Source of the DNA: Vitis vinifera
Lineage: Eukaryota > Streptophyta > Magnoliopsida > Vitales > Vitaceae
Assembly: GCF_030704535.1 (NCBI RefSeq)
Contig: NC_081818.1
Coordinates: forward strand, 5,962,501 to 6,026,500
Length of the DNA: 64,000 bases
Direction: 5' to 3'
The position numbers and the translations under genes are program-made. Every line of letters begins with the position of its first letter. The first letter of the stretch is position 1. The notes under the pieces are model-generated. The model was not told where the DNA came from, did no database searches, and was given only the letters and a program-made list of their open reading frames with translations. Below are positions 14,941 to 54,433 of the stretch, piece after piece.

Positions 14941-17104
14941 AGTTCTTTCAATTTAGTCTTTTTGGGTTTAGTTATTAGCGATTTTGAAGCAAGCAATGCA
15001 GCTGTCAGCTGAAAGTGGGCACATTGTGTTGCTCTTCGTTGGTATGGTGACATTTTTTGGAATGTTGGATTTTCAATGCTCTGTTGATATTTGTACGTGG
15101 AAGAAAGAAGGCTTACTCACTTGCAGATTTTTTTAGATGAATCGTAAATCTGGCAGGAAACAGGGGCCCTGCTTTGTAATTTTGACATGACAATGATTGT
15201 GTAACTATTATTTAGGTATTTGAGATTGAGTGCAAAAGAGGGGGCTTTGTGTTATTTGAGACTGACACCATGTAATGAGTAGTATATATTTGGGATTTAT
15301 TTAATTAGCTGCAGTACAGACATTTTATCTTGCCATTCTCTGCTGTTATTGATCATTGCACAGGAAACTCCTTTACACGCTTGCAATAAACTTGAATGAT
15401 TGTGTTCAAATAATCATTTACTTAAGTGGGGGCCTGCTTTCAATTAGTAAAACCATATGATTGATTTGCTTTTGACTGCAATGTAGTTATATGCTTGCTG
15501 ATGTGATTGTGTTTGTATGATGCTTCAAACCTTTCCGACATCAACATGTTTGTTTGTTTCTTGTTTTCTTAATGGTAACTAGTCTTATAGAAATGGATTC
15601 AGATTTGAAGTTTGTATGATATTCAGGGGTTGCTGCTGTGGAAACCTCCCTTCGGAGGCAAATTTAAGGTAAACATGGTGGTACCTAGGGTATAAACAAG
15701 ATAAAGTTGAGTAGATTTTTTTGTCATGAGAAAGGGATTTCAACAAGGACAAAAGTTGCTAGTCCTAGAGCCATTGGAGCATGTTTTCAAGCTAGAGAAA
15801 TTTGTTAATCAATCCGTGAAATTAGGCTTTAACTTAACTAGTTCTAGTGGAATTTTCGTCCAGTTGATATTTACATTTTCATGTATTTCCTTTAGTAGAC
15901 TTGTGGATATTTTGAAGGTCTTTGTTACTTAGACAGTAATGATCATGCCTGCATTCAACTTCCCGGGTTTGCTTTGGCCGTTTCCTAAACCTGATTCCTT
16001 TTGTGCTCATCACATCAAGTTTCTTTCGGTGAGGTTTAGATTTTACTATCTTCAAAGTTCTAGTACACTAGTTGGTAATCCTGAGGGAAGATTAATTCTC
16101 TGAACAAAGTTCAACCGTTTCTGCCTTCTTGCCAGTTGGTGACAATTCTTTCTGGGACGGGGATCTACGTAAGAAGGATCCCCCACAACTGTTTAGTTCC
16201 TCAGTATGCATCTGACTCACAACCTCACAATGCCTAGAGATTTTGGAAAATCCAGAAAGTTGTCATATTTTATGAGAGAATTTGCTATACCAAAATGGGT
16301 TCCTGTGGATTTTCTTTGTTGGCTTGGAGGAGAGGTTATAGGACAGTTCCTGTCCAAGTGGAGGATGTGAACCCTCTCTGTACTTCGCCTTATCCTCGGC
16401 TTCTATGGGATTTTTTATTTTCGCTTGAAACTTTTGGAGAGCTGAATATTTATTCCCTTGTCCGGCTGTTGATAGAAGATTGTTGCTATTTAATTTTTTG
16501 ATGTCATTTCCCAGTCATTATTCCGAGCTTCCGTATTTTTTGAATCTGAGTTGAGTATAATCGTGTTTAGATCAAATTCATACGAAAACAGGTAACATAA
16601 ATATGATTTGAATTAATCTATTTGAGAATGGTGTTGATTAAAGTGATTATAATCATAACTTATTTAATTGATTCATTTAAATTTTGATTGAATAAATACA
16701 TTAATTAAGTCTAAATTATCCGATTTTATGATGTATTATCTATTTAATAATTAGATGGGTCCATTTATTTGGTGGAGGGTCTGAGTTTTAATACAATATG
16801 GATATAATCTATCAACATGATCTATTTATTTATTTAAGAGAATAAATAATTGAAAAAATGATACTTTTCTCACATTTCTTATTCCTCTTTTTATTAGTAA
16901 TTTATTTTTTGTATTCCTCTTTCTTTTATCACCTTTGATGTTCTTTTAGAAAAAATATTGAAAGGATTTAGTGGGTGTTAAGTAAAACTTGATATTTATT
17001 ATTTAATGATTTAAGTCAATTTTAAATTAAATTATTTTTAAGAAGGTGTTTGGTAAATCAATTTAATATAAAAATTATTATTAAGTTTTACCAAACAATA
17101 TATA
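14941..17104. other. 3' UTR of the methyltransferase-like gene, then intergenic spacer
   Basis: The first 300-400 bp are likely 3' UTR. The rest, to about 16.5 kb, is less AT-rich but holds no recognised gene. A 68-codon frame at 16295-16501 has no domain. From 16.5 kb the sequence becomes strongly AT-rich. Confidence 0.45.
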
Positions 17105-17511
17105 TATTAAGCATAGATTATTGGGCTTTAATGTTCACGTCGGATTGGGCTAGTCCAGGGGTTAGGCTTAGACTTCAAAAGTTAGTTCGGTTTAGGCTAG
17201 TAGGCAAATGGGCCAAATTCACATTCTTGGAAACAATTATGAGTCATGACACTATTTCATGGAAAAATTGCCATATAGGGTGGGTTGGGTGTGATAATAA
17301 CCGTTATACATTAAGCATAAATTTTTGGGCTTTACTGTTCGGGTCGGATTGGGCTACTCCAGGGGTTAGGCTTAGACTAAAAAAGTTAGCTCGGTTCGGG
17401 CCAGTAGGCAAATGGGCCAAATTCAAATTCTTGGAAACAATTATGAGTCATGACATTATTTCATGGGAAAATCACCATATAAGGTGGGTTGGATGTGATA
17501 ATAACCTTGAA
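17105..17511. repeat. Two tandem copies of a 204-bp unit
   Basis: 17105-17308 and 17309-17511 align along their length. Both contain TTAAGCATA, GGTCGGATTGGGCTA-like and GGCAAATGGGCCAAATTC segments and end in GGTTGGRTGTGATAATAACC. Differences are scattered substitutions, so the duplication is old. A third partial copy of the unit's end lies at 19587-19618. Confidence 0.88.
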
Positions 17512-19581: not shown

Positions 19582-20899
19582 ATTACCATATAGGATGGGT
19601 TGGGTGTGATAATGATCGGGAAGGGTGATATCTTTTGATAATTATTGGGGAAGACAATAATAGGCTTAAAATTTAAAAATGTCATTCAACTAAAAACTTT
19701 TAAAATTCAACGCATTTAAAGCAATTTACTTGTTTTGTCGTGACAATTATGGTGTGTGGATTCCACATTTATTGTAATTATTGACATTCAAAATTCAAAT
19801 CAAAATTGTGGGTTTAACCTTTACGACTATTATATATAACAATAGTAGAATTTGTTATTTAAATTTATTATTTTAAAAAAATACTTTTAAGAAATATTTT
19901 TAAAATAACATTTAATGTGTTTTTTTTTGTATTTTTATTCTATTTTTTAATTTTATTAAGAACAAAATAAGTTTCATAATTATATAATAAAAATTATGAT
20001 TTTTTTTCATATATATATATATATTAAATTTTAAATTGATAAATCATGTTTTTGTATTAAATTCGGGAAAGATAAAATGCTTAATTTTTCATTTAAATTA
20101 TCTAAAAAGAATAAGAAAATGATGGAGAATGTTTAATTGTTTTTTATTTTTTATAATAAAATAATTTTAAAAAAATTATGTGATTTTTCTATATATTTTT
20201 CCTTTGCATAATGTTTCTTTCTTAATTTTTATATATAATTTTATTTTTCTTCACTACATAGAGTGGATGATGTCAATACATATGATATGTTAAATATTAA
20301 TGAGGTATAAAAAGTGACTCTTAAGACTATTACTTTTATTATAAAATACAAGTACGACAAAAATATATTATAATTACGATATAAATACACTTACATTACA
20401 ATACATAACAATAAAACCTAATTGAGAAAATTTTGAACTTTTTTATAAAAGTGATAGTTTTGTATGATCATTCTATACTTTATAACATACTTATATTATG
20501 AATCATTTTAGAAACAAAATGAAGAACTAATTTGAATTCATGAGACTCGCATTTTTTTTAATTTATATATATACAAAAATTATTAAATAATTTTAATGCA
20601 CTGGGTGAATGATGTTAATATACTGATATGATGTGTTAATACAAATAGACTATGAATAAATATTTTTAGTATTATTACTTTTGTAATAAAATATATGTAC
20701 GACATAAATGCACTGTACTTACAATATAAATACAATAACGTTATAATATATTACAATATAATTTAATTTAATTTTGTTTAATTTTTTTCACATGCTATAT
20801 TATACAACGAATGGTTGTGTGTTATTCTATTGAATAGTTGTGTGTTATTCAATTGAATATTTGTATATTATTCAATTGATTAAGAATTATTTATGATAT
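19582..20899. other. Third repeat-unit remnant and AT-rich spacer
   Basis: Starts with CCATATAGGATGGGTTGGG, matching the ends of the 204-bp units near 17275 and 17476. It then runs into AT-rich sequence with repeated GATATGTTAA/GATGATGT-like stretches at about 20270 and 20610, which suggests a further old duplication. No gene seen. Confidence 0.5.
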
Positions 20900-21424
20900 T
20901 GTAGACCCTTCCTCTTTTCAAACCAAGTGTAATGGTTTGTTGTTATTATTTTATTATTACTATTTTTATAATTTGAAATAAAAGGCATTCCATGACCACC
21001 CGGGAGAGTGGAATTTTTCCATTTTTTTAAGTAGGGGGACCTCTTTTTAGAGAAGGACCAGCTGCATGGACGGGTGGCAAGGAGCATGGCTGGCCATGGT
21101 GGTGGTTGAAGACGACATGCTTGTTGATCGGTGAATAGGAGAGCGGGTAGTGGCTTGCCAAGGAAGACAGAAACAAGAAAGAAAAAATGGGAGGTCTGGG
21201 AGCTTCGGAGAGAGGATTCTGCAGAGAGAGATGTGCTTTTTTTGGTACTGGTAGAGGAGAGATATTTTGGTGAGCTGCAGGAGAGGTGGTTTTTTTTTTT
21301 GAGAGAAAAAAACAGAGAAAGAAAGAGGGGGGACTAGGGATTTTGTGAGGAGTTGCAGAGAGTTGGGAGATCCTGGAGCTTCTGAGGGAGGATTCGTTTA
21401 GCTAGGGGCAGCAAGCTGTGAGAA

Positions 21425-21479
21425 GTAAAAAAAAAAGGCTTGGGGGGGGGGGGGGGGGGGGGGGGAATATTTTTTTTTT
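21425..21479. repeat. Homopolymer cluster with a 24-base poly-G run
   Basis: A poly-A run (about 21427-21436), then 24 consecutive G at 21442-21465, then poly-T (21471-21479). A run this long could form G-quadruplexes and is prone to length error in sequencing, so its exact size should not be trusted. Confidence 0.9.
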
Positions 21480-22236
21480 AGAGCATCCTTTTGCTGGAAG
21501 AAAACAACGAGGAGGGGATTAGACAGAGGAAGTTGCAGGTTGGTTCCTTGAAGAGAAAACCAGAGGTGTCCGGAAAGAGTTTGAGCAGAAAGCAAGCCAT
21601 ATTATCTTCGCTTGAGGACTCAGGTATGACCATTAGGAGTTTTTTCACTTTGTATTACTTGATTTTCGTCTCTTCACATCGTTGATCTTAGGCATGGTTT
21701 GATGGTTTTTGTTATTATGTTCATTCTACTCTGTTCTTTATTCGGTTTCTCTGTTTTCCCTCAAATGACTGGGATATGGTTTACTTTCTTTGAGCTTGAT
21801 GTTTGATTAAATACACAAAATCTTACTGCTCGTCCCACCAGTTGGCATTTTGTTCATCGCTCATGAAACGAGGTTTTGCCTAATAATTGCTTGAGTTCTT
21901 GCTTTGTTTTATCTATTTCATTCTCCATACTTTTGTGCTCACATGTGTTTAATTGTGAAAATGCCTTGGACTGTGTATCACCCTTTGTAGACTGTGTATC
22001 CCCCTTTGAGAAAGCTTTGGCTGCTCCTAATCTGGAAGATGAATGTCACTCGAACTTATTTGGACTGAAAATAAAGAAATAATGACTGCCAAAGCAAGGC
22101 ATTAATGCCATCTTTCAACTGTTGATAATTCTGGATACATATTCGAGCCTCAACAAGGGTAGGTTGTTGCCTACCCAGTAGATATGAGATACTGTCACTT
22201 TGAGAACAGGGTTTGGATGTTCAGCTGAGAGTGTTA

Positions 22237-22920
22237 ACAGAGAAGAAGAGGCCTCATTTGAACACTGTGTCATCCCCCATGGCCCGAAACTCTAGTGTTT
22301 CTCCCGATAACCGAAGCGTTGATGCAACTTACGTCCAGTATCAGAATCAAAAACTTGTTCAACAGTTAGAGGTGCAGAAGCATGAGTTGCATGATCTTGA
22401 AGACAAAACCAAAGAATTAAAAGACATACAGACTTCATATGATGACATGTTGATTACCACGAACCCACTCTAGAGTTAGTTGGTTGATGATTTAATCCTA
22501 CTTGGAATACGAGCGGGGGGAGGTCAAAATGCTATACAAACCTTGGGCCATGCAGACCATTCTCGAGGTCTAATTCCATCATGTCTTGCTGAGGAGATAT
22601 TTCTCTATAGACTGCTAGAAACAGATTCTGTTGAAAGCAATGGGAATGATGGAATTATCAAATATGTTGAAGAAGCCCTTGCTTTGCGACATTCTTCTAC
22701 TCTAGAGTTGATGAAATCCCTGGAAGATACCATTGATACTCAAAGGGTCAAAACAAAAAACATAGCACAGGCTTTGCATGGAAAGCTATCTGCAGAAAAT
22801 GCTATCATCCAATTAAGTAAGATTGATGATTTGATGAAAGAGGAGGCTAACAATCTGCGTGAGGTTATTGATGCTCTTCACTTAAAGCATAAGGAATATG
22901 TTGATGGGATGACACAAAAA
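22237..22920 (+). pseudogene. Intronless N-terminal fragment of a HUB1/HUB2-type (BRE1) E3 ubiquitin ligase
   Basis: The translation reads KKRPHLNT, MARNSSVSPDN, QYQNQKLVQQLEVQKHELHD, SYDDML, VDDLILLGIRAGGGQ, EEALALRHSSTLELM and IQLSKIDDLMKEEANNLRE, in the order seen at the N terminus of plant histone H2B mono-ubiquitination ligases. Two codons in NPL*S*LVDD have become stops where Trp and Gln are expected, near 22471-22480, so it is dead. About 680 bp is read with no intron, although the family gene has many, which points to capture from a spliced RNA. The RING domain is absent. Confidence 0.8.
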
Positions 22921-23455
22921 TTGGTAGTTGCATGGAATGTGATGATTCCAGGGAGATGCCGGAGATGAATTTTTTGACACGGACTGTGATGAATATCTGG
23001 ATTGGCGCAAAACGGTTTTGGTGAAGAAGGTCTAAATCTATTCAATCGTACAGAGCCAGAGGGTTTTGAGCCATGTGATTATGCATTTGCAGGGGCAATT
23101 ATTGCTTGTGTTTGGTTGGCAGTGTTGATACATGGACGACAACTCCATGCTCAGCTTGTCCAGCTATGTTTTGATTCTATCTTTCCAGTAGGGAATGCAC
23201 TGATAGTAATGCATGCAAGATGTGGTGTGGTTGAGGCGACCCATTATGTTTTTCTAACAATGTATTATTTGGGTTCAATATCCTGGAACGTCATGATTGC
23301 AGCTCTGGGTCAACAAGGACATGCCATGCTGATCTAGTTGAAGAGGGACTTTGCTACTTTGAATCTCTGTCAGGCCTTTATGGTATATGCCCATGCCCGC
23401 CTATTTGGAAGACACTTCTTGCTGGTTATAGGATTTATGGGAACATGAATTAGGG
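22921..23455 (+). pseudogene. PPR (DYW-group) protein fragment, internally deleted
   Basis: Directly after the HUB piece the translation shifts to pentatricopeptide repeat sequence: VAWNVMIPG, EMPEMNFLTRTVM, AQNGFGEEGLNLF, GFEPCDYAFAGAI, HGRQLHAQLVQL, GNALIVMHARCGVVEA, SISWNVMIAALGQQGHA, and after a frame change EEGL.YFESLSGLYGI fused to PIWKTLLAGYRIYGNMN. The family sequence would have tens of residues between the last two blocks, so there is a deletion near 23387. At least three frame changes or stops occur. Complete PPR proteins of this type bind organelle RNA; this fragment cannot function. Confidence 0.8.
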
Positions 23456-23499
23456 TATTCCCCATATGCATGCAGTGCATGCATGTATAGCTACATGAA

Positions 23500-24475
23500 A
23501 CACTCCACCGCCCACCTTCTCAAGAACCTACATGCCCATCACCACACCAAACCCATTCCTCCTCACCACCTCTCCTATTCATCTCCATCTTTCACACACC
23601 GGTGGCATGTTTTCAGTGTTCATTCATCCTTCATCCCACTTAAACTAACCCATTATTCTCCTCATTTCCATACCTATACATGCTACCTATTCTTTTTAAA
23701 CCCATTGAACACATTCTCATACTCCCTCATGTTTTTCTCTTTCTACACCACACCACATATCCATTCTTTTTAAATGTCCTTCAAACCCATCCCCCATACT
23801 CACTACCAGCTACCCATACCTCCTTCATTCACTCTATATTCATTTATCTTCTATTCTTCCATTCGCATGGAATTTACGTGCATGACTCCCTAACCCTTTC
23901 CAACACCTTTCCTTGAAATCCACTTTCCACCAAGCTCACTCCCCATTACCACCAACCATCCATGCTATCAATAATACCCACACTCACAATTCCATCATAT
24001 CCAAGGCTATGCACCATTTATCATACCTCGTGCATACCAAACCCATTTCCCTTCCACCACATTCCTTCATACCCATTTTCTTTCAAACCCATCATACATA
24101 CTCCTCCATACCCGTCCTTCATGCCCACTTCATACCCATTCTTCAATTTTCTCATACCCATCTCCATGCGTACACGTATCACCCATCTTCTATACCCCCA
24201 TGCATATCACCACATTTCTCTCTCTACATCCAAGCATACCTATTTTCTCTTATCCCACCCATGTCATCACCTCCATGAAACCCACTGTCTTCATGATCAT
24301 TCTCTATATCCCCATGCCCGTTCTATCAATTCTCATGCATGCATGGTCCTCATCTATACCCATTTCTCTCATTTATCACCTTCATCATTTTCCAAACTTC
24401 CATACCCGTGCATACCACTAATCCTTCCAATACCCATCCTACCCACATGTTTTCATTAGGAACCCATCCTACCAT
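23500..24475 (+). repeat. G-poor, C/T/A-rich low-complexity tract of about 1 kb
   Basis: For nearly 1 kb the + strand has very few G and is made of short words such as TACCCAT, CATACCC, CACCAC and TTCCAT in irregular order. Long frames open here only because the composition avoids stops (TAG and TGA need G); they have no domain. It sits between the PPR and Hsp70 fragments inside the LTR-type element. Confidence 0.8.
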
Positions 24476-24617
24476 AACCATGTGAAGTGCTAGCTATTTG
24501 GGCATCCACTGTGAAAGTAAACCTGTGAGCATGAGTCCTATTAAAAACATGTTGAACCAAATATGGAGTTATCAAGCCATGACATCACATAAATTTGACC
24601 ATGAGTCGGGCTTATCC

Positions 24618-24716
24618 AATTGTGGCAGTTTGCATGGCTACCTACAATGGCGAAGAAAAGTGGTTTAGCGCTGAGGAAATCTTCACAATGGTTCACATCA
24701 AGTTGCGGGATTTTCA
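24618..24716 (+). pseudogene. Probable Hsp70 ATPase-domain fragment
   Basis: A short frame reads ATYNGEEKWFSAEEIFTMVH followed by IKLRDF, close to the Hsp70 segment KGEEKQFSAEEISSMVLIKMRE. It ends at a TGA near 24718. Only about 33 codons are recognisable, so the call is moderate. It would be the third host gene piece in the element. Confidence 0.5.
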
Positions 24717-24773
24717 ATGATTTAAGAGCTACTGCTCCTGGGAACTAAGGCACGACATCAGAGGTTAACAAGA

Positions 24774-25073
24774 TTGAAAAAGGATACCCGTCTGAAATCT
24801 GCAAGAAATCTCAGTGCAATTGGCATCTTCAATGTGTTTTGTCTCATACTGAATTCAGGATCTCAACCAGGTCCTCCCGTTCTGCTTTTACCTGACCTTT
24901 TTAAGGTTGATGGTGTTGTCGTCAAGAAGCAACACCGATACGTCGACGTTTTGGACAAGAACTCCACTTCATCTTTCACTTCGCATGATCCACATGCGTC
25001 TTCTTCTTCCACAGCCCTAGTTATTACTGTTCTGGTGGTCATTATTGTCATCTCCAGCGTACTTCGCAACTAG
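24774..25073 (+). other. Unassigned open stretch with a hydrophobic C terminus
   Basis: A 99-codon frame contains PGPPVLLLPDLFKVDG, a Ser/His patch and a final hydrophobic run (VITVLVVIIVISS) before a basic end. It could be the tail of a captured membrane-protein gene or chance. I do not recognise it. Confidence 0.25.
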
Positions 25074-25212
25074 CTCATCTCTGACGCTGTGGTCTCCATC
25101 TCTGACCTGAAGTGATCCGTGGTGATGAAGAGAAGAGACCCATTGATGAATCTTGGAGACTTGGGATCCTCATGGAAAGTTCTTAAAAGTTATAAGAGTA
25201 GAACATAAGGTT

Positions 25213-25376
25213 ATGGCCATGCTAGGGCCTAGCTTATTGGATGTATGGAATTCTTCAAGGCGAGCGATGTCTTCAGAATTGGTAGCTTGTACTGCAGTTG
25301 AGTATTTATCAATCCTAGAGAAAATGCCATCACGAGGTTATGTGCATGGAGATGTAAAACAGGAAAACTTGAATCT
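25213..25376 (+). pseudogene. Fragment of a casein-kinase-I-like (MLK/PPK group) protein kinase
   Basis: The frame reads [20 protein letters not shown], then [17 protein letters not shown] and [25 protein letters not shown] and the catalytic loop HGDVKPEN are hallmarks of the plant MUT9-like/photoregulatory kinases, a casein-kinase-I subgroup. Pro is replaced by Gln after the catalytic HGDVK. The ATP-binding lobe and activation segment are absent. The piece joins the eS8 fragment directly. Confidence 0.75.
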
Positions 25377-25722
25377 TGGATGTGGTTTACAATGCATCAA
25401 ACAATGAGTTAGTTCGTACCCAAACATTGGTGAAGAATGCCATTATTCAGGTTGATGCATCACCATTTAAATAGCGGTATCTCCAACACTATGGCCTTGA
25501 CATTGGTTGCAAGAAGAAAGCCTCAACCACACCAAGAAAGAAGGAGAGAAAGGTGATGGTCCTGTTGAGGAGATAAATAAGGGCAACCATGTGGTGAGAA
25601 AATTAGAGAAGCGTCAACAGGATCACAAACTTGATCCACATATCGAAGAGCAATTTGGTAGTGGCCGGTTGTTGGCTGCAATCTCATCCTATCCTGGTTA
25701 GTGTGGCCATGCTGATGGATTC
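25377..25722 (+). pseudogene. Fragment of cytosolic ribosomal protein eS8 (RPS8)
   Basis: From the kinase junction the translation gives [20 protein letters not shown], then [11 protein letters not shown], a stop where Gln or Trp is expected, [15 protein letters not shown], and after a frame change [30 protein letters not shown] and CGHADG. This order is the C-terminal two thirds of eS8, a small-subunit ribosomal protein. It is read without introns over about 340 bp. Confidence 0.85.
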
Positions 25723-26639
25723 TTTTTTGCAAGACCCATTTTCAACACTTATATTTTGTTGGGTATTCCCTGCTTCTCAAGAAAGATAAGGCCATTGAGG
25801 TACAGTTTGAATGAGTTGATGATTGTTAATGGGCCAACATTTGGATCCCCTTGAATGAAAAATTGCTTGAAAGTGACCTGAATTGGAACCTGGATATGCC
25901 ATTTGAATTGGGTTCACTGCGTTGAGAAAGGAAGTGTCTAAAAGAGTACTTTTCCAGAATGGGCCCAGAAGAAAATACTCATGCATGACCACCTTTAGTA
26001 TGACTACTTTTTGGCCGTGTGTCCCTTTCATTCTTCTTCATCCTCGTTTGGTTTTCATATATAATTTTTCACACTCCAATACTCAAATCTTTTTTCAAAT
26101 TCTAGCTTTTAAATAGTTTTTTCCAAATTCTAAACCCTTCAAATTATTTTAATTTTTCAAATCTTCATCGGTAGTTTTTTATTAGGCCTCAAAATATCAA
26201 TTTCAATAAAATTTTGCTGCCACATTTCTTTAGGCATGCAATTTTCAATAACTTCCATGATTTTTTAAAATGTTTTAAAAATAAGCGTGAGCTAAATTTC
26301 GTAATTTCAAGTGATGGAATTTACAGAATTAATTCATGCAATAATAAATTGGGCTATGGTGGAGGCCCAACATCAAATAAATTTCCTTTAAAATAAAAAT
26401 GGAATTGAATGAAATGTCGTGCATGCTATTGGTGCTTCTTTATCTGGTTTGGTGATATGAGTGACATATTTTATGATCATTACTATGCACTAACCCCATT
26501 TTGTGATAGCGCGTTGCTGTTTACGGATCAGGTACGCATCCTTTTTTACTTTAACTATCATCCATATATGCTTTGACTTTCAGTATGTGATCATGTCGGT
26601 ATCCATTGATTCTCTTATTGACTGCCACGTCAGCTTCAT
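25723..26639 (+). other. Unassigned part of the LTR-type element
   Basis: Between the eS8 fragment and the LTR-like 3' end there is no recognisable coding sequence. 25790-26000 may be another captured piece, since it has a gene-like composition, but its frame is broken and no family is recognised. From 26030 the sequence becomes T/A-rich. Confidence 0.4.
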
Positions 26640-26928
26640 CTTATTAGTAGAGACCCGACTTTAGGGACTTAGAAGGGTGCTACGGTCTTTATCGTACCTT
26701 CCTGATAAGTAACCTGATCCCCGAGCTCGATTCAGTTTTTCACAAACCACATTTTCCAAATAAGGAGTCACACTTAGTGTTTTCTTTCTTATTTTGTTTA
26801 CCCTTTTAAAAATAAAACAAAAATAAGTGGCGACTCCAAGTCATTTTTGAATAAATATAATCATTTTTTAAAATAAAATCGAGCTCGTCATTGAGTGGAA
26901 ATGCATGAGCCGAAATACGGGGTCCACA
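26640..26928 (+). repeat. 3' end of a long gypsy-type LTR
   Basis: Contains GGGACTTAGAAGGGTGCTAC, TCTTTATCGTACCTTCCTGA, GTAACCTGATCCCCGAGCTC, GTGGCGACTCCAAGTCATTT and the terminal ATACGGGGTCCACA, a series familiar from the ends of Tat/Ogre-like LTRs in eudicots. It supports reading the whole 20.9-26.9 kb block as LTR-derived. Confidence 0.6.
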
Positions 26929-28591
26929 CATATATAAAATCAAAATTGTTTTTTAATTTGCTAACTCACTTGCATTTAAACTTTTTATCAAATAATATCA
27001 AATTGAACCATCATATTTTTAAACTAATATATTAAACTTTATTTTGATTCTTATTAAAACATTAATCATAACAAGGAAATTAAATAATTTTAACTAAAGA
27101 AAAATAGGTAACACACTAATTTGTTTCTTAACTTAAAAAAATATATAGTAATATAACTTTAAACTTTTTATAATTAATAAGAACTATTATTATTACTATT
27201 AATGATAATTTCTATTTATGATATATATATAAAAGATTTTCTAAAATATTATAATAGGTAACCCAAAAAAATAACTAATAGACTTTTGGTCACGATTGTG
27301 TGAACCCCGTGACCATAGGTTCAAAATATTTAAAATAAACCTCTATACATTTGGTCACGGTCATGCGAAATTCGTGACTATAAATCTCAAATGTTTTGAA
27401 GAAAAAAAAATTCAAATAATTTAATTTCTTATAATAAAATAAGAAAAATTATATATATTCCTTTTCTTTTTCATTTTTTTCACTTTCCCATTTTTTTTTT
27501 AGCTCTAAGTAACTAAAGGAGTAACATAAAAATGACAAATTTATTAAATATATCATGTTGATGTGTTAATACAAAATAATTTATGATTAATACAAAATAA
27601 TAAACTAGATTAATAATGCATAATTTATTATATTATTTTGATGAATATTTTAACATTCAATTGGACTTATCATTTGCAAGTCCATTTCAAGTAAATAATA
27701 AAATTATCTTTATCCTTGACTTTTTATAAGTAAAACTATATTAAATAGTCGGGGTAATAGTTCAAAAGTGAAAAATAATTTTTTTTTGACACGAGATATG
27801 TACTAATGATTAAATATATTTATCATCATGAGTGGGCCCCATATTATTGACAATCTCAAATATATTTATAGATAATATAGAAAATATATTTAATAGTAAA
27901 ACTGTCCTCTAAAACTTCTTGAGATAATGTATTGTACTTTTAGTATATTTATATAAGTGTTGTACTTAGAATTCACATCTTTTTCCTTTATAATAACTAG
28001 TAAGTGCTCATTAAATTTAAGTATTTGAATATAAAAAAAATTAGCATTTAATTTTTTTTATAAAAAAAAATTTGACAATATTTTTTATTTTATAGTTCAT
28101 AATTTTTAAAAAAATAAATTTCTTTTAAATATTTTCTTTTGCAATGTAAATATGTTAATATGACATTGTAAGTTGCCCAGATTTGCAAAACAAATTCAAA
28201 AAAGACATTGTATATATCAATTAACTTCAAAACTCATTCATTCCCTTAGTTTAAAACATAGCTATTATAGTCCATGGAAAAATAAATAAATACAAAAGAA
28301 ACCATTTAAAGATCTTCCAAAAAACACACCTATTTTTTTTTAATTTTTTTTTGGAATCAATTTTCACTATTTGAATTTGTTTGAGCTATTGATTTTAAAA
28401 ACATTGAACCACAATCAAAGGACCTCTCTTTGGAATTTTAGCATATAGGAAGATCCTTAAAGCCTTATACATGATATTGTTGCAGGTGGTTTCTTTTATT
28501 TTTGTTGTCAATGAATATTTTCTGTTGGGTTCTGTAGTCCTTTTTCCTTTTTCTGGCTTTTCTTTTACCAGTGAATGTTGTTCCTTCTCAG
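26929..28591. other. AT-rich spacer
   Basis: No gene. At 27288-27390 there are two imperfect hairpins built on GGTCACG/CGTGACC, about 60 bp apart, resembling subterminal repeats of a DNA transposon. The part from about 28395 may be intron of the BMS1-derived segment that follows. Confidence 0.45.
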
Positions 28592-44894: not shown

Positions 44895-45110
44895 GTAAAT
44901 AATACTAAACCAAACAAAGAAAATGAGCATGACCCATGATTCAGATTAATCAACTCTTTGTCTTGCTGTCACTGAAATAAATTATTTGAGTAAACGAAAG
45001 AGAATATATCCAATATTATAATTTGGGCATCCATGTGTTGGTTTTATATAATCCCTAAGCTCAAGAGCTTAGTGCTGATCCAGAAACAATCATCAATATT
45101 TCTGCAATAG

Positions 45111-45647
45111 ATGGATTCCGGGACTGTCACTCTCAGACCATTCAGGGTCAGCGATGTGGATGACTTCATACTATGGGCAGGCGATGATCAAGTCACTCGA
45201 AACATCCGGTGGAAGACCATCACCTCTAAGGAGGAAGCCTTGACCTTCATTAAAGAAGTCTGCATCCCCCACCCCTGGCGTCGATCCATATGTATAGATG
45301 ACCGCTCCATCGGCTTTGTTTCAGTCTACCGGTGGTCGGGCAACGAAATATGTAAGGCGGACATAGCGTATGGGATAGCTGCAAAGTATTGGGGACAAGG
45401 GATTACCACCAAAGCAGTGAAGATGGCTGTATTAGAGGTGTTTAAGGACTTCCCTGATCTGGTAAGGCTGCAGGCATTTGCTGCAGTAGAGAATAAGGCC
45501 TCTCAGAGGGTGTTGGAGAAAGCTGGGTTCACCAAGGAGGGTTTGCTCAGGAAGTACACATTTCTCAAGGGCCAACTGAAGGATTTGGTGATATATAGTT
45601 TCTTGTCCACTGACATAACCGTGGCCGTGGATGACAAACTACTCTAA
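45111..45647 (+). CDS. GNAT1: GNAT-family (RimJ/RimL-type) N-acetyltransferase, 178 aa
   Basis: One uninterrupted exon. MDSGTVTLRPFRVSDVDDF opens the Acetyltransf_3 fold, SICIDDRSIGFVSVYRW gives the central strands, and KYWGQGITTKAVKMAV is the acetyl-CoA pyrophosphate loop (variant Q/R-x-x-G-x-G/A). NKASQRVLEKAGFTKEGLLR is the conserved C-terminal helix-strand pair of this subfamily. Length is normal for these small plant GNATs, which transfer acetyl from acetyl-CoA to an amine; the acceptor is unknown. The start is the first ATG, preceded by AATATTTCTGCAATAG, which is shared with GNAT2. It differs from GNAT2 at about nine residues. A copia element inserted a few hundred bases upstream separates it from the array promoter block, so its expression may differ from GNAT2's. 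Confidence 0.92.
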   Translation: MDSGTVTLRPFRVSDVDDFILWAGDDQVTRNIRWKTITSKEEALTFIKEVCIPHPWRRSICIDDRSIGFVSVYRWSGNEICKADIAYGIAAKYWGQGITTKAVKMAVLEVFKDFPDLVRLQAFAAVENKASQRVLEKAGFTKEGLLRKYTFLKGQLKDLVIYSFLSTDITVAVDDKLL

Positions 45648-46463
45648 GAAAATCAGTAATCCCCCCTAAAGTAGTTTTAGTTTGTGTGCTTGAATGCCAA
45701 CACAAAATCTGCTGTTTCTCCTCGTTTTCTTTTTGTCCTTTGTTTTTTCACTGTCGTTTAATGCTGCTGCTATTAAAAGGTAGTGCTCGTATCATATTTG
45801 GAAATTGAACGTTAATAATGCATTTCTTCATGGTTCACTAACTGAGGAAGTCTAGATGCAGCAAGCACCAGGGTTCTTATTTCTCTTCCCCAAATGATCC
45901 AGAACAAACACAATGGAGCAGTTTTCTGTTTTCACACATGACTTTTCTTGAATTAAAGAATGGATTCTAGAAGCTAAAAGAAAGGTGTTGATGAGTAATT
46001 GCAATCATTGATATTTCTGACATGGTAGATGTTACTAACTTACTAGACATAATGGAATTGTCTGATCTTAAATGAAACCTTGTAATGTAACCAACACACA
46101 AGCAATCTTCCTGTAAAAAATCCCTGCACCTAATTATAGCTTCTGTTTTAAGGTTGCAGAAGAAAATCTGAATTTCAAATATATGAACCCACCACTTACT
46201 TTCCCACTCTCAAGTTACAAAACCAATTGTTTTTATAAACTGCAATTCCTCAGGTCCATTCCATTACTTCTGTCAGCTAAATCAAACTTCATCACTCAAC
46301 AAAAAATAGAAAACAAAAAGGGCAGTCACATGGACCCAAAACAAAGAGAAATATGGTATACATTTTTTCATTGAATGGATGGTGGTTACAATTTGTTTGA
46401 CTCCTACAACTCTAATTCAGTTCCCAAAAAAATATCATCGTCTGTACACAGCTTGATTACTGC
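45648..46463. other. GNAT1 3' flank
   Basis: The first 40 bp after the stop match the GNAT2 3' flank (AAAATCAGTA, TAAAGTAGTT, GTTTGTGTGCTTGAAT) and then diverge. No other gene is seen. The part near 46180-46460 could be the 3' UTR of the minus-strand exon described next. Confidence 0.5.
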
Positions 46464-46718
46464 TCAAATCAGCTTCTGTAGTCTGTTTCGAAGCCATTTC
46501 CACACAGCAAAAACCATATCTTTACCCGTTGCCTCCAAGGTGTAAACTTGCCCAACAGGTCCATGGAGACTGTATTCAGTTGCCGTCTGGATGTTCCTAC
46601 AAGAATCACCGACACAAGCACAACTGAGCATAACACATTGTACTCTAGCTGGACTGTGAAAAAGAATAGGAACCATGTTTGTAACAAGGTTCCTCTGTCT
46701 AACAAATATCCATCAGCC
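46464..46718 (-). pseudogene. Orphan 3'-terminal exon of an unidentified gene
   Basis: On the minus strand, TTTGTTAG just upstream is a fair splice acceptor. The following frame reads QRNLVTNMVPILFHSPARVQ, then SCACVGDSCRNIQTATEYSL, HGPVGQVYTLEATGKDM and VFAVWKWLRNRLQKLI before a stop. Codon use and composition look coding, and a Trp-rich amphipathic end is plausible. I cannot name the family. Upstream exons would lie past 46729, exactly where the segmental duplication starts, so the gene looks cut by that rearrangement. Confidence 0.4.
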
Positions 46719-46999
46719 ATAGGAAATTAAATTAACATCCAATTTCAAAGTTGGGTTGTGCGAATAATTTTTTAAGATGTTAGTGATGAAAAAGAGGTTA
46801 ACCCTATATCTGTTTTTGAGGTCGAAAAAAAAAAGAAGACCGGAGACAACCACTCATCGACTACTTATAAAACAGAACACTTCCTAATAATCCATGTCCA
46901 AGAATTAAAATACGATGACGAGCACCTCAGTTATTTACCACAATAATACATTTTATAAGTGGTTCTTTGATGAACTGTTTCTTTGTTGATTAGGAGGAC

Positions 47000-47520
47000 A
47001 TGAAGCAACCAAGGTTTTATAAGAAGCACATTCCGGGATATGTTGTGCACCTATTAATCCGGTCCAAACTTTCATTTTCAAGTAAAAGAATGGGGTATTA
47101 TTGGCCAACGATGGTTGAAGACCCCATGAATTATGCAAAAAATGTCAATCTTGTTAAGTTCATGCAAACTTTATTTATCAACCTCTGAAGCCCTTGCATC
47201 CTACCATTGCTTTATAGTGCGCCTTTGAATGCAGAGGGACTTGATGTAGTAGGACTAATCACACTAAAGTCTTCCAGAGGTCATGCATATATATTGGTAG
47301 TTGTAGACTACATCTCCAAATGGGCAGAAGTTGTGCCACTTAAAGAGGTAAAAAAAAGGGATTGTTGTCAACTTCATTCAAGCTAACATCATTTATCGAT
47401 ATAATATCCCTTAACACCTCATAACTGATAATGAAAAATGTTTCTACAAGACTTTGATGAATAAACTATGTAAAAATTTTGAATTCAAGTTACATAACCC
47501 TTCCATGTATAATGTACCTA
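47000..47520 (+). pseudogene. Ty3/gypsy integrase remnant, copy 1
   Basis: Broken frames give GYYWPTMVEDPMNYAKN (zinc-binding region), then GLDVVGLI-like, SSRGHAYILVVVDYISKWAE (integrase core start), VVPLKEV, IIYRYNIP and TDNEKCF-like motifs. These are the order and spacing of a gypsy integrase. No RT or LTR accompanies it. A second copy lies at 56960-57470. Confidence 0.82.
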
Positions 47521-48179
47521 TTGGTATGGAGTTCTTAAAAGATTAAACTTGACTTTTCACTTTACTATCCTCATTTTCATTGATATTGATTTTAGTATTC
47601 AAACTTATATTACTTATATTGTACATGATTTGAGTGCATTAGGAGTTGTATGAAAGATCCAATTCATGGTTCTTTGTAAGATCGATGAGCCATTTCGGTT
47701 TATGAATTCAAACAATCCATTTGAAGTTGTAGTACATTACTTCCTAATTGGAGGGATGTTTGGTCTTGATAATCTGAATGAGTTTCTCATGATGAGTGCA
47801 GTAGTATGTATGGTTACATATTGGATAAGACTTACGACGAATCATGATATTGGTTATTGGGTAATCATGATTTACTATGTTATTGTACTACGTAAACTTT
47901 CAACTTGAGAGGATATTGAGTTTGTGTTGAAATCAACATATTATACCCTAAAAAGAGACTTCCTATTTAAGTCAAAATATGTTTCTATGTATATTTTCCT
48001 AATTTTATTGAAAGATTTTATATTAGAAACTAATTGTATAATTGTCAAAGATAACTATTTATAAAAGATCTTATAATAAGATGTTTCCTCTATGATAATA
48101 CAAAACCCCTTACAAAAATATATCTTATTAAAAAACCATTAATGACTTTTCAATTAACTTAAAAATAGAATTGCTAGAG

Positions 48180-48350
48180 ACTTTCCTACGCTTATGATGG
48201 CGAGGATGGACATGTTTTAGGATATGATGACTCAAATTATGCAAAAAGTAAAGGCAACATCATAACATCAAGAAGGTCATTTGGATTTATCCATGGTTTG
48301 TTTATTCCTTATCCCAAAAATCCTATTTCATTCTCATAAAAAAATGAATT
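48180..48350 (+). pseudogene. Possible copia RNase H scrap, copy 1
   Basis: The frame gives YAYDGEDGHVLGYDDSNYAK followed by SKGNIITSRRSFGFIHG, resembling GYxDSDYAG..DxRRSTTGY of copia RNase H. It is short and isolated. A copy lies at 58075-58190. Confidence 0.5.
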
Positions 48351-48400
48351 AGAATTTATAAATAATATAAATAGGATTTGGTTTATTCTATATGTTATGT

Positions 48401-48408
48401 ATACATAC

Positions 48409-48479
<71 letters not shown>
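48401..48479. repeat. Compound microsatellite (CATA)n-(TA)n
   Basis: About 20 bp of CATA repeats followed by about 60 bp of pure TA. The duplicated copy near 58285-58300 has only a short TATATATA, so the expansion came after the segmental duplication. Confidence 0.95.
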
Positions 48480-48480
<1 letters not shown>

Positions 48481-49018
48481 CATTATATACTATATTATTT
48501 TTATTGTTCCTTGAAAGAGTGACACATAGACTATTTTCAATTTTTTATTTTTTTTATTTATCTTTCTATGAATTGTATGTTTATAACAATAGGAACAAAA
48601 TTTTCGTAATTCCAACGGATTGAACGTATTATGTTGATTTTTTTCAATAATATATCTAGAAATGTCTATTGATTTTTCTTATTAACATCATCTCGTACAC
48701 AACTAGTACATTTGACTTATTGGCTAGGTAGAAATGTTCTAAGACATGATTTACTTGCCACCTATGCATTGTGATTCATTAAATTTTTTATTTTTAAGAA
48801 AATAGATACTATAAAATTTAAAATAAAGAAATAAATATGATCAAGTATTAGCAAATAAATAGTTTTAAAAATTATTTTTTCAAAATAGTAATTGATTTTA
48901 TCTATTAAGTAAAATTATTTCTTAACTTGTCACTCCGCCACACATATTTGATTATTATAATTAAAATTCTCTTTTTTACATGTGAGATGTTGCTCTCCAT
49001 GCAAGATCATTAAGGTTA

Positions 49019-49350
49019 TGTTTGATACATATTCTTAAGAATAGTTTTTTATTTTTAGGAGAAAAAAAATACAAAAATATGTTTGATTGTCGGTTATTCC
49101 CAAAATAAGTTTTTACGAGAATTGTTATGAAAATTGAGTACTTTTTGGGAAGATATTTTAATTATTCTCACTTATTTTTATTTATTTTTTAGTATATTAT
49201 AAAAAATAATTGTACAAAGAATGATTAAAAATACAATACTATAAATAAAAATTAGTTTTAAGAAATATTCGAATGTAGAAAAAACGTTTTTGAAGTTATC
49301 AAACATATTTTTATATAAGAAAATATAAATCAATTGTTATAAAAATTACT
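49019..49350. mobile_element. MITE-like AT-rich block
   Basis: TATGTTTGATACATATTCTTAAGAATAG begins an A/T-rich, partly self-complementary block also present at 58850-59190 in the duplicated copy. Edges are vague and no target duplication was identified. Confidence 0.35.
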
Positions 49351-49409
49351 TTTTGAAAAACTGGATTCGAAAGCAGCCAATGACATGGTTTTATCCACAT
49401 ATTTAATAT

Positions 49410-49960
49410 ACTATTTCTCTCGTCAGCTATTACGGTTGGTATGCCCACACTCAGAGTCAATTTGTAGCAGTCGATTGTAGATGATGACCACTGTTTAAGG
49501 ACCATGAGTTGGATGCCAATACCATTGGCTCTCCATATCCAATCGACTTCTATTATTATTGAATTGGAGAACCAAGAATTACATACACATAGAATCATAT
49601 GACAACAAAAACCCATCATCAACCTCCATCCTCACATTGTCACTACCAATATAATACTAATCAAACAAAGAAAATTCAACATATGAAAATCATATATATT
49701 CACATGAAAATGACCTTGGTCCATTGTCCACAGTCAGAGTCAATTTGTAGCAGCCAATTGTAGATGATGACCAGTACTGTTTAAGGCCCATGAGTTGAAT
49801 GCCAATACCATTGGCTCTCAATATCCAATCGACTTCTATTATTACTGAATTGGAGGACCAAGAATTACATACACATAGAATCATATGAGAACAAAAACCC
49901 ATCATCAACCTCCATCCTCACATTGTCACTACCAAACAAAGAAAATTCAACATATATGGG
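49410..49960 (+). repeat. GNAT2 upstream region with a tandem duplication of about 281 bp
   Basis: GAGTCAATTTGTAGCAG, TGTAGATGATGACCA, ATGCCAATACCATTGGCTCT, ATCCAATCGACTTCTATTAT and CCTCACATTGTCACTACCAA each occur twice, at about 49456-49645 and 49737-49935. GNAT2 therefore has two array promoter blocks where the others have one. Confidence 0.88.
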
Positions 49961-50047
49961 CATCCGTCAATCTATTAGTTTTATGTAATCCCCAAGCTCA
50001 AGGGCTTAGCGCTGGTACAGAAACAATCATCAATATTTCTGCCATAG

Positions 50048-50584
50048 ATGGATTCCGGGAGGGTCACTCTTAGACCATTCAGGGTCAGCGACGTGGATGA
50101 CTTCATACTATGGGCAGGCGATGATCAAGTCACTCGAAACATCCGGTGGAAGACCGTCACCTCTAAGGAGGAAGCCTTGACCTTCATCAAAGATGTCTGC
50201 ATCCCCCACCCATGGCGTCGGTCCATATGTATTGACGACCGCTCCATCGGCTTTGTTTCGGTCTACCGGTGGTCGGGCAACGACATATGTAAGGCGGACA
50301 TAGCGTATGCGATAGCTGCGAAGTATTGGGGGCAAGGGATTACCACCAAAGCAGTGAAGATGGCTGTATCAGAGGTGTTTAAGGACTTCCCTGATCTGGT
50401 AAGGTTGCAGGCATTTGCTGCAGTGGAGAATAAGGCCTCTCAGAGGGTGTTGGAGAAAGCTGGGTTCACCAAGGAGGGTTTACTCAGGAAATACACATAT
50501 CTCAAGGGCCAATTGAAGGATTTGGTGATATATAGTTTCTTGTCCACTGACATAAGCGTGGCCGTGGATGACGAACTACTGTAA
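50048..50584 (+). CDS. GNAT2: GNAT-family N-acetyltransferase, 178 aa
   Basis: One exon, same length as GNAT1 and about 95% identical in protein (for example Thr5/Arg, Ile/Val in KTxTSKEE, Gly/Ala in ADIAYxIAAK, Phe/Tyr in RKYTxLKG, Lys/Glu near the end). The acetyl-CoA loop KYWGQGITTKAVKMAV and the ASQRVLEKAGF helix are intact. Start context matches GNAT1. The substitutions are mostly conservative, which suggests both copies have stayed under selection, though no substitution-rate test was run. It lies inside the segmental duplication but is missing from copy 2. Confidence 0.92.
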   Translation: MDSGRVTLRPFRVSDVDDFILWAGDDQVTRNIRWKTVTSKEEALTFIKDVCIPHPWRRSICIDDRSIGFVSVYRWSGNDICKADIAYAIAAKYWGQGITTKAVKMAVSEVFKDFPDLVRLQAFAAVENKASQRVLEKAGFTKEGLLRKYTYLKGQLKDLVIYSFLSTDISVAVDDELL

Positions 50585-51029
50585 GAAAATCAGTAGTCCC
50601 CTAAAGTAGTTGTAGTTTGTGTGCTTGAATCCCAATAATTTCATAACTAACAAAAGTTGAATATTTGTAATTGGCTTTAGAGATGGGTACAAATTAGCAA
50701 TTTCAGACTTTTTATATAATCTAATTGGAAAGGGAAAATTATTTTAAAGATTGGTTTAAGTTGATAATTTTGTTCCAAAGATCATTGGTTTAGAACCCAA
50801 TCCTATGAGAGGTGGGATAGAAGGTGTAGCTAGCAAAGATAATAAGAATGTATAGCTTAGCTTAGTAAAGTCATCCAGATAAATGTGTTACAAAATAACA
50901 GGAATAAGCAATAAGAAAAGAATAAGAATATATAAATTTACGTGGAAACCTTATAAGAAGAAAAATCATAAGTAGAAGAGAAGAAGATCCACTATGTCAA
51001 AAATTGATACTAGAAAAGAGAGTTGTAAG
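50585..51029. other. GNAT2 3' flank
   Basis: Short similarity to the GNAT1 3' flank, then unique AT-rich sequence. From 50851 it is shared with 59316 onward in the duplicated copy. No gene. Confidence 0.5.
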
Positions 51030-52001
51030 CAATGTTTTCAAAATCGGATCGGGTATTGAATCGGAAAAGTTACCAATTCACGGTTCACTGGTCGGACCGA
51101 CGGTCGAACCGGTGATGTCATAAATATATAATTTATATATTATTAAAATTAATAATAATAATAATAATAATGATTTATATATTATTTAAAAATTAAATTT
51201 TTATTTAAAAATCATAAAATTAGTTTCAAATTAAAATTTTAAATTAAAATCAGAATTTAAATTTAAATTTTGAAATTTTAAATCAAAAACTTATTTTATA
51301 ATCATAAATTTATTTTAAAATTATAATATTTATTATTTTCATTTATTTAAATTAAAATCACAAGTTTTAAAAATCATGAAGTAAAAAAATAATAGATATA
51401 AAATAAAATAAATAATAACGTTGATAGAGTAAAAAAAATAAAAAAAATAAAAATTGGAAAGGGCGGCCAAAAAGGTCAAAAAATGTCAAAAAGGAAAATA
51501 AAAAATGTCAAAAATTTGGGCGGCCAAAAAGGTAGGGTTTTGGGGCTATTAGAAAATGTAAAAAATCTGGGTGGGAGCATCGGAAAGGAAAGGGAAAAAA
51601 TCTAGGTAGGGAAGGGAGAGGTAGAAGGAAGGGTTTTGGGGGGCACTGGAAGCGGAAAGGGAAAAAGTCTGGGTGAGGAAGAGTGAGGAAGAAGGAAGGG
51701 TTTTGACACCAAAAAGGGGAAAAAATCTAGGTCGGGGCATTGCGAGGGGATGAGAAGAAGGATGGTTGTAGGACGGCGGTGGCACTGAGGTGAGCTGATG
51801 AAGCGTTGGATGGGGGAGGAGAACTATTCGGTTCATCGAAACCGGCATAGTCATTTGGTTCATTGGTCTGACCGTGGTTCCGGCGATCCAACGCCAGTTT
51901 AAAGGCTCCCTGGCCCAAATGGTTGAACTGGACCGAATTAGTGATCGGCCGACGATCAAACCGGTCAGACTGGCCAGTCTGGTCCAATTTTTAAAACCAT
52001 G
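51030..52001. mobile_element. Non-autonomous hAT element A, 972 bp
   Basis: The ends CAATGTTTTCAAAATCGG and (reverse complement of the right end) CATGGTTTTAAAAATTGG match at 14 of 18 positions. The 8-bp flanks GTTGTAAG (51022-51029) and GTTGTGAG (52002-52009) differ by one base. In the duplicated copy near 59487 the site is empty: GTTGTGAG occurs once and the sequence continues as in the right flank. The outer parts are rich in CCGGTT/GACCGG words, the middle is AT-rich. No transposase. Confidence 0.87.
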
Positions 52002-52019
52002 GTTGTGAGCAACTATAAC

Positions 52020-52450
52020 AGAAGTATAATCATTATCATCATAGTCTTAAAACTATACATCATCACACACACACATAAGCATAATCATCATCATCATAAC
52101 CTTAAAACTATACATAAGCATAATCATCATCATCATAACCTTAAAAAAAAAAAATCATAATTTTAACTTTATCACATATGTTACACCGCAAGTTTTTCGG
52201 ATCAATTAAAAAAGAACTTGGGTTACCAAATTATAACAATATGTATATGGGTAGATCCCTTGGAGCATTAAATAAGCTACAAGAATCTCCTAATATTCAA
52301 CAAAAGTCAAGGCAAGGACCTTAAAAAGGAAATGCAAGCGATTTCTTAAAAAGAGGACAAAGACCCAAAGCTTTCCTAATCAACCTAGAGATCCTCAGTA
52401 TAATCACCCCATACATGGTGACCTAAAAAATAGGTTGAGAATAACCAAAT
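52020..52450. other. Non-coding duplicated spacer
   Basis: Repeated ATAATCATCATCATAACCTT words (52080-52145) form a short degenerate tandem array, also present near 59515-59640. The rest matches 59830-60045. No gene. Confidence 0.6.
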
Positions 52451-52462
52451 GGATGTTGACAT

Positions 52463-53375
52463 CATGGTTTTAAAAATTGGACCGGATCAATTGGTCTTAC
52501 TGTTGGTCAATCACGATTCCGATCCAATTTGATGAATTAGGCCAAAAGATGGTTGAATGGAAATTGGACCTAATGAATTGGCAGTTCGATTGATGAACCA
52601 GCGGATTCTCTTTGAACTGGATGGTTTAACCTTTTTTTTTTACAACATCAAAACAATGTTGTTTTGATGCTTCTTGAATCAAAATGATGCTATTTTGATG
52701 ACTATTTAAAGTATCTTTTTCTTTCCCCCACCCCCGGCAGCCTGCCCAACTTCAATAGCTGCCGCCTGCTGCCAACAACCCCCCCTCCCCCTACTCCAGT
52801 CTTTGATCCCACCCACGCAGAGCACCAGCGGTCTTTGCCCCCCTTCCCCTTGCCACCCCTCTTCCTACTGCCCAACGCCCCATGCGCCGCAACCTTTCTC
52901 CCATTTTCTTTTCCTATGGTGTCTCTTCCCCATTTCTTTCGAGATTTTTATTTTTATTTTTATTTACCTTGTTCATTGCCATTATTATTTATTTTATTTT
53001 ATATTTGTTATTTTTTTATTTTATGATTTTTAAAACTTGTCATTTTAATTTAAATGTAATTTTAAATAATTTTTATTTTAAAAATAGTTTTTTGATTTAA
53101 AAATAAATTTTAAGATTTTTAATTTTAATTTCTAATTTGAAACTAGTTTTCTAATTTTCAAATAATTTTATTATTTTCAAATAAAATTTTAATTTTTAAA
53201 TAATATATCAATTATATTATTTTTATTTTTAAAATTATTTTAAAATTTTAATAATATATAAATTAGATATTTATAACGACGTCAGTTCAATTGTGGTTCG
53301 ATCGTCGATCCGACTAGTAAATCATGAACTAGTAATTCTTTTGGTTCAATGACTGATCTAATTCTTAAAACATTG
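52463..53375. mobile_element. Non-autonomous hAT element B, 913 bp, same family as A
   Basis: Starts CATGGTTTTAAAAATTGG and ends with the complement of CAATGTTTTAAGAATTAG, so the end sequences match those of element A in swapped orientation. Flanks GTTGACAT (52455-52462) and GTTTACAT (53376-53383) differ by one base; the duplicated copy reads GTTTACAT at its left flank, showing which base changed. Pro-rich frames near 52803-53100 are artefacts of C-rich sequence. Confidence 0.85.
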
Positions 53376-53383
53376 GTTTACAT

Positions 53384-54160: not shown

Positions 54161-54169
54161 CCCCCCTCA

Positions 54170-54433
54170 ATTTGTCAATTTGAGTCAGCTGTAGCTCATG
54201 GTCCACCATGAGGTGGATACCAATCAATATCAGTGGTTCAAATGGACTCGGTTGAATGGCGGAAAGTGCACTCAATATCTTTTCCACTTCTACTATTATT
54301 AAGCTGGAGGACCAACACATTGTTGACAAACAACGAGAAATATGAGTAATCCGTCTGTCAGTTTCACATAATCTCTCAGCCCAAGCGCTCAGCGCTGATC
54401 TACAGAGCAATGCATTCAGTATCTTTGGCATAG
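54170..54433 (+). promoter_or_regulatory. GNAT3 promoter block
   Basis: GTCAATTTGAGTCAGCTGTA, CATGAGGTGGATACCAATCA, CTTTTCCACTTCTACTATTA, GGAGGACCAA and a stretch just before the ATG (CTCAGCGCTGATC) match the corresponding parts of the GNAT1 and GNAT2 flanks. Confidence 0.7.

Follow-up and report, generated by a model that had tools for sequence, protein, structure and literature searches.

Host-gene pieces at 20900-26928

The window analysed here is a 64,000-nucleotide (nt) stretch of Vitis vinifera DNA on contig C14 of the searched genome (495.6 Mb, 21 contigs; contigs are cited below as C3, C6 and so on, and copies of the element and other loci as L002, L010 and so on). Within it, a block with TG...CA ends opens with TGTAGACCC, whose first T is position 20900, and closes with GGGTCCACA, whose last A is position 26928. 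Judging from its sequence, this block is a single long terminal repeat (LTR), most likely a solo one, of a Tat-type Ty3/gypsy retrotransposon family, and not a whole element. An earlier note on this DNA had described it as one LTR-type element, bounded by the same ends and carrying pieces of at least five unrelated host genes, all on the + strand. The single block and its ends stand, although what was taken for an LTR-like 3' terminus is better read as part of one LTR that spans the whole block, and the host genes identified are now six, namely HUB-like, PPR, Hsp70, a gene on C3, a CK1-like kinase and ribosomal protein eS8, their pieces all in sense orientation. The host pieces and their joins are as follows.

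22238-22910, + strand: HUB-like complementary DNA (cDNA), five exons joined (22238-22317, 22318-22479, 22480-22567, 22568-22798, 22799-22910); parent C6:1093639-1100329 (- strand)
22901-22910, + strand: HUB-to-PPR join, 10 nt, TTGATGGGAT, present in both parents
22901-23458, + strand: PPR piece with three internal deletions; matches C18:11881976-11883080 and Pfam PPR
24642-24710, + strand: Hsp70 piece, 69 bp, 81% to C6:5502559-5502627; weak protein match
24695-24834, + strand: piece of an unnamed C3 gene, 140 bp, 83% to C3:1840401-1840539
24940-25161, + strand: possible further piece, weak, 70% to C14:6375940-6376162
25209-25370, + strand: CK1-like kinase cDNA, three exons joined (about 25210-25265, 25266-25337, 25338-25370); parent on C6 at 1.24 Mb (+ strand), L040
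25360-25370, + strand: kinase-to-eS8 join, with GGAAAACT (25362-25369) in both parents, compared by eye
25360-25718, + strand: eS8 cDNA, two exons joined; parent C19:7665959-7666800 (- strand), 94%

Seven introns have been removed exactly from the window copies: four from HUB, two from the kinase and one from eS8, the three pieces that had been read as intronless from the window alone and whose parents do contain introns, here removed to the base. In particular, the 673 nt of the HUB piece are 95.8% identical to the five joined exons of the parent, with no gap, and the parent's GT..AG introns of 5667, 84, 124 and 143 nt are missing; the piece itself begins and stops within exons. The kinase piece equals its parent at 148 of 162 positions and lacks introns of about 969 and 160 nt, and the eS8 piece, equal to its parent at 338 of 360 aligned positions, lacks one of 482 nt; the third exon of eS8 could not be placed in the alignment. 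Neither intronless parents nor retained introns nor flanking genomic DNA of the parents was upheld for any of these three pieces in the alignments. What is more, the genes matching the pieces of this one LTR lie on C6, C18, C3 and C19, i.e. on other chromosomes than the window.

Protein comparisons identify the eS8 piece (PDB, E=1.4e-17), the kinase piece (PDB, E=1.6e-6) and the PPR piece (Pfam PPR, E=2.7e-6). The piece at 22238-22910 is one that we take to be HUB: Pfam gave no confirmation, the three PDB matches all had E values of 0.25 or worse, and a genome search for the BRE1 domain PF08647 in support of the name gave no match, although a domain split by introns can escape detection in such a search. 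The piece called probably Hsp70 in the earlier note is weak by protein (no Pfam match, and a sole PDB match at E=0.14), but the name is supported at the DNA level by the 69-bp match to C6, and the adjoining C6:5501012-5501638 matches the Hsp70 piece of a sibling copy at 81%. The reading frame at 24726-25070 matched no Pfam family. The cargo reading frames are interrupted by stop codons, and it is therefore unlikely that they are working genes.

The pieces meet at short stretches of shared sequence. HUB and PPR do abut, their parents having the 10 nt listed above in common, and the join between the LTR backbone and HUB has 11 nt in common when L010 is taken as the backbone and 7 with L017. As a chance level, 200,000 random joins for each sequence pair gave at least 7 shared nt with a probability of 7.55e-4 to 9e-4, at least 8 with 2.2e-4 to 2.65e-4, and at least 10 with 2.5e-5 to 7.5e-5. 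At the kinase/eS8 join, base 25361 agrees with eS8 alone, so that the join needs one altered base or sits slightly upstream.

A long LTR and its family

The remaining features of the block are those of the LTR itself.

20895-20899, + strand: 5' flank GATAT, candidate target-site duplication (TSD), 4 of 5 bases equal to the 3' flank
20900-26928, + strand: whole unit, one LTR of 6,029 bp, most likely solo; no inner LTR duplicate, and a full-length relative on C14 has an LTR pair
20900-22255, + strand: 5' end region, of which siblings share 20900-21185 and 21526-22255
21621-21628, + strand: splice-donor-like CAG/GTATG
22074-22075, + strand: site lacking about 99-100 nt that siblings have, perhaps a spliced intron of the element
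23459-24480, + strand: pyrimidine-rich stretch (703 of 1,022 bases), partly common to copies on C7 and others
25719-26084, + strand: piece common to the window and the copy C4:19210265-19211428, by similarity to that copy
26085-26928, + strand: 3' end region, a high-copy repeat in the genome
26872-26877, + strand: AATAAA, resembling a poly(A) signal; distance to the LTR end conserved
26929-26933, + strand: 3' flank CATAT, candidate TSD, compared with the 5' flank

The solo state is the most likely one because, by eye, neither a primer-binding site (PBS) directly after the LTR nor a polypurine tract (PPT) directly before it adjoins the block, and because of the flanks GATAT and CATAT. No paired LTRs were found within 20-27.8 kb of the window, and there is no long direct repeat inside the block. 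Since the block is one LTR, most likely solo, the cargo is part of the LTR itself and does not occupy the internal region that a pair would enclose. The possibility that the repeated 3' end belongs to an ordinary, short solo LTR was also considered and rejected: none of 30 copies examined (0 of 30) has a TGTAGACCC-type start in the 1.6 kb upstream, which argues for the long-LTR reading. The LTRs of this family are unusually long, at 4.2 kb in the measured pair and 6 kb in the window.

The measured pair belongs to a full-length relative at C14:4624262-4647147, whose end repeats, aligned over 4,245 positions, are 99.6% alike (a 4.24-kb LTR pair). Each repeat matches parts of both end regions of the window LTR, 5' and 3', at about 75%, and the likeness to the window LTR goes no further than these regions. 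The element has a TSD of AATAT, a PBS directly after the 5' repeat and a purine-rich, PPT-like tract before the 3' repeat, and its coding order is gag, reverse transcriptase (RT), RNase H, RVT_3 and integrase, with RVT_3 a second RNase H between RT-RNase H and integrase; the window LTR itself carries no coding region. This order is that of Ogre/Retand elements of the Tat clade, which likewise have a second RNase H between RNase H and integrase (PMC6317226, in the part available). Host messenger RNA (mRNA) cargo in LTRs, as in the family described here, goes unmentioned in that part of the source. Perfect 5-bp TSDs flank two more units, whose middles were read in part, namely CTTTG at C11:2.123-2.129 Mb and GCCAC at C14:8.907-8.912 Mb. 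As a separate observation, L017/L068 (C11) and L018/L067 (C14) have differing TSDs and are 99% alike where compared, and the first approximately 370 bp of the former and 240 bp of the latter show no mutual match, as if the LTR start had been swapped.

Searches with the 5' and 3' parts of the block found relatives on many chromosomes; each scored at most 40 candidates, and the copy numbers are not counts. For the 3' part, 40 of 4,849 first-look candidates were scored and all 40 matched, the window among them. The search for other copies proposed in the earlier note did yield a large family with similar ends, but one whose cargo differs between members. The 30 fetched copies have about 0.7-1 kb of the 3' part in common and end in CACA (29 of 30) or CATA (one), and 30 of the 31 units, counting the window, have AATAAA or ATTAAA 57-64 bp before the LTR end, at about 57 bp in the window. 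The splice-donor-like site recurs in the first approximately 500 bp of five of ten sibling 5' ends, and slightly further in in a C11 copy. The segment of about 99-100 nt lacking at 22074/22075 is present in all eight siblings examined, starts with GT in all of them and ends with AG in six and GG in two; the window copy may have lost an intron of the element's own here, and has one base altered at the join. Several smaller peculiarities of the LTR can be recorded here. Near its 3' end, at window 26828-26839 and in siblings, GTGGCGACTCCA resembles the start of the element's PBS, TGGCGACTCCA; a run of 24 G lies at 21442-21465; and the backbone frame LDVQLRVLTEK continues stop-free into the HUB frame at 22204-22470, as it does into the next cargo in L043 (4001-4675).

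To survey the cargo of other members, open reading frames (ORFs) were taken from 48 stretches between or beside the end regions, some of these loci being near-copies of one another or parts of one unit. Out of the ORFs of at least 60 amino acids, 112 of 231 on the + strand and 63 of 184 on the - strand were scanned against Pfam; ORFs below 85 amino acids, low-complexity ORFs and the middle of the C14 4.6-Mb element were left out of this count. The 112 sense ORFs matched 30 Pfam families at E<=1e-4, and 25 listed among these are of host type, including aminotransferase, Hsp70, PPR, kinesin, tRNA synthetase, carbonic anhydrase, BTB, photolyase, WRKY and thiolase. Among the 63 antisense ORFs, two matched a Pfam family, PF10712 in both cases, and one of the two lies across from the L043 Hsp70 piece. 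When 40 single ORFs were scanned, 11 matched Pfam at E<=1e-3, one of these (MATH in L058) falling under Pfam's own cut-off.

Joined exons recur in this wider set. One ORF fuses a LANC-like piece to a kinesin piece, the two matches overlapping by 8 nt, and its kinesin part matches three separate C5 exons, joined. The Pfam-matched AsnRS piece of a C16 unit (L062) joins four separate C11 exons, and this cargo recurs in full at C6:10363976, at 97%, and partially at four further places. The cargo of the C18 unit L043 consists of a piece of a C10 gene, which we take to be PHOX, the Hsp70 piece and three joined exons of a C17 gene.

Cargo is also found at two places of what may be single elements. 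C18:35371900-35372300 and C18:35387155-35387555, 15,255 bp apart, are equal at 401 of 401 bases, backbone plus cargo; they may be an LTR pair, or alternatively a tandem duplication. At C11:11526028, a 5' LTR with a PBS carries carbonic-anhydrase cargo, and a partial copy of this cargo follows on the same strand 30.7 kb on, at 95%. Six places (L002, L011, L014, L016, L028 and L043, which equals L013) resemble 3' LTRs in having a purine-rich tract right before the LTR start; among them, L002 holds HUB cargo and the four on C18 hold C10-gene cargo. The cargo of L043 and of L044 opens with a few HUB-fitting bases before the next piece, and in L003 the order is backbone, late HUB, PPR. From this it would seem that HUB entered the family before it was replaced by other cargo in later copies. 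Independently of this, C18 19.10-19.73 Mb contains, over about 0.62 Mb, five units with cargo that are close to complete and 99-100% alike to L043, together with part of a sixth; these may belong to a larger duplicated segment.

Routes of capture and comparison with known elements

The cargo is real, RNA-mediated and a trait of the family. Pieces that are sense, spliced and partial and that are joined at short similarities point to RT switching between RNAs, and we consider it very probable that RT moved between spliced host mRNAs in the course of reverse-transcribing the LTR portion of the genomic RNA. In this scheme, host mRNAs would be packaged along with the element RNA; RT, on its way through that portion from the PBS toward the 5' end, would jump onto host mRNAs at short similarities and return to the element RNA near a preferred place, at about 22248-22255. 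As this one copied stretch gives rise to both LTRs, the cargo would enter both and be inherited, and later cycles would add or replace pieces. With a splice donor near its 5' end and a poly(A)-like signal some 57 bp short of its 3' end, the LTR would seem to consist almost entirely of one very long R region that also holds the cargo; minus-strand strong-stop synthesis would then cross the cargo. The proposal of the earlier note that spliced RNAs were joined by template switching thus gains support from the exact removal of introns, the sequence shared at the joins and the sense ORFs, the mechanism itself still being deduced from these traces.

That said, a number of observations weigh against this explanation. 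Intron loss is demonstrated for three of the six genes in the window (HUB, kinase and eS8), and the PPR, Hsp70 and C10-gene pieces match intron-free stretches and so are no test of splicing. The PPR deletions are not introns: the C18 gene has none in the matched part, and the window copy lacks internal stretches of about 359, 90 and 93 nt. The two bases just 5' of the kinase piece match the end of the parent's intron and not the upstream exon. Moreover, at the kinase/eS8 join, where the earlier note had the two pieces abut with almost no spacer, GGAAAACT is in both parents, but the strict crossing point shares only 1 nt with the parents' present letters (8 if one base was altered). Divergence from the parents is unequal, at approximately 4% for HUB, 6% for eS8, 9% for the kinase and 11-18% for PPR, and therefore the pieces did not all enter in one cycle. 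As for the family, 29 of the 40 single ORFs had no Pfam match, both putative cargo-bearing LTR pairs (C18 and C11) are known from partial reading, and in the measured C14 LTR pair, whose middle was judged by eye, no host piece was recognised in the printed frames. Finally, the window LTR is most likely solo, and its flanks form an imperfect TSD.

Intronless copies are equally the product of long interspersed nuclear elements (LINEs), whose machinery could have made processed pseudogenes that later came to lie side by side in the LTR by nested insertion or DNA recombination, and such a history would also suit pieces that differ in age. However, no poly(A) run is seen by eye at the HUB/PPR and kinase/eS8 joins, the joins have sequence in common, the HUB piece begins and stops within exons, and host domains stand in sense ORFs throughout the family, all of which makes this route unlikely. 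A shade less probable is capture at the DNA stage after integration, with broken LTR DNA repaired by patches of stray cDNA: the short homology at the joins fits end-joining equally well, but patches would be expected in both orientations, whereas among the antisense ORFs two had a match, both to the same family and at least one of them across from an Hsp70 piece, and the cargo is found between the LTR end regions and at two places per putative element.

The splice donor in the 5' region of several copies brings to mind classic transduction, in which read-through transcripts started in the LTR are spliced into neighbouring genes and then retrotransposed; with the matching genes of one LTR dispersed over C6, C18, C3 and C19, and with a HUB piece that begins mid-exon, we regard this as distinctly improbable. 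Pack-MULEs, Helitrons and similar transposons do capture gene fragments in plants (PMC13317346 and PMC2774510, as far as the available text goes), but capture at the DNA level by such elements is hardly credible for a block with TG..CA ends from which seven introns are gone, and whose relatives have 5-bp TSDs and an LTR pair.

With RT switching as the preferred explanation, a wider suggestion can be made tentatively, which we hold to be a serious possibility though not the likelier one: across the family, a kilobase-long R region may act as a trap for host transcripts, into which spliced mRNA can be copied without harm to strand transfer, with the result that the LTRs duplicate changing exon mosaics, which are then dispersed across the chromosomes. 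If true, exon shuffling would be an ongoing process in a plant genome, with this family as its machinery.

LTR elements are already known to capture genes, and what is new here is the multi-gene cargo within the LTR, family-wide. In Bs1 of maize the cargo is internal, between the two LTRs, an arrangement not found in the present family, in which it lies inside the LTR, comes from at least six genes and is replaced by other cargo in other members. The likeness lies in Bs1 being an LTR retroelement that holds pieces of several unrelated host genes, with segments of three of them (PMC13317346, in its available part). Gene-bearing LTR retrotransposons of maize (PMC2774510) and of rice and sorghum (PMC3726574), and the retroduplication of NLR genes in pepper (PMC5664825), likewise carry and amplify host sequences according to the text available from these sources, with intron loss in pepper; the position of the fragments within the maize elements is not stated in that text. 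BARE-2 of barley shows that template switching can alter the LTR itself, foreign retrotransposon sequence having been brought into it in this way, although the donor there was another retrotransposon and here it would be spliced host mRNAs (PMC13317346, same part). In the accessible parts of the open literature searched, we found no description of a family whose LTRs contain spliced host mRNAs.

The family, with its many copies, would be a natural record of the mRNAs that enter retrotransposon particles and of the sites at which RT jumps, and would explain how an LTR element can collect exons from many genes. Surveys that limit LTR length, or that look only between LTRs, can miss such cargo, and annotation can mistake solo LTRs of this kind for chimeric genes or pseudogenes. 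Where essential genes are copied in sense, the copies could also feed small-RNA silencing.

Other repeats in the window

Outside the LTR, the window contains further repeats. Long direct repeats, 73-96% alike and spaced by approximately 4.9, 6.9 and 9.95 kb among other distances, occupy 45030-61093, as if a segment of several kilobases had been duplicated in tandem. The stretch 61189-63804 holds many copies, both direct and inverted, of a palindromic motif around GGTGTCTCTTGAAGAGACACC, in part with a period near 55 nt. A 204-bp tandem duplication with 90% matches lies at 17101-17506, and a 30-bp tandem repeat at 2326-2434.

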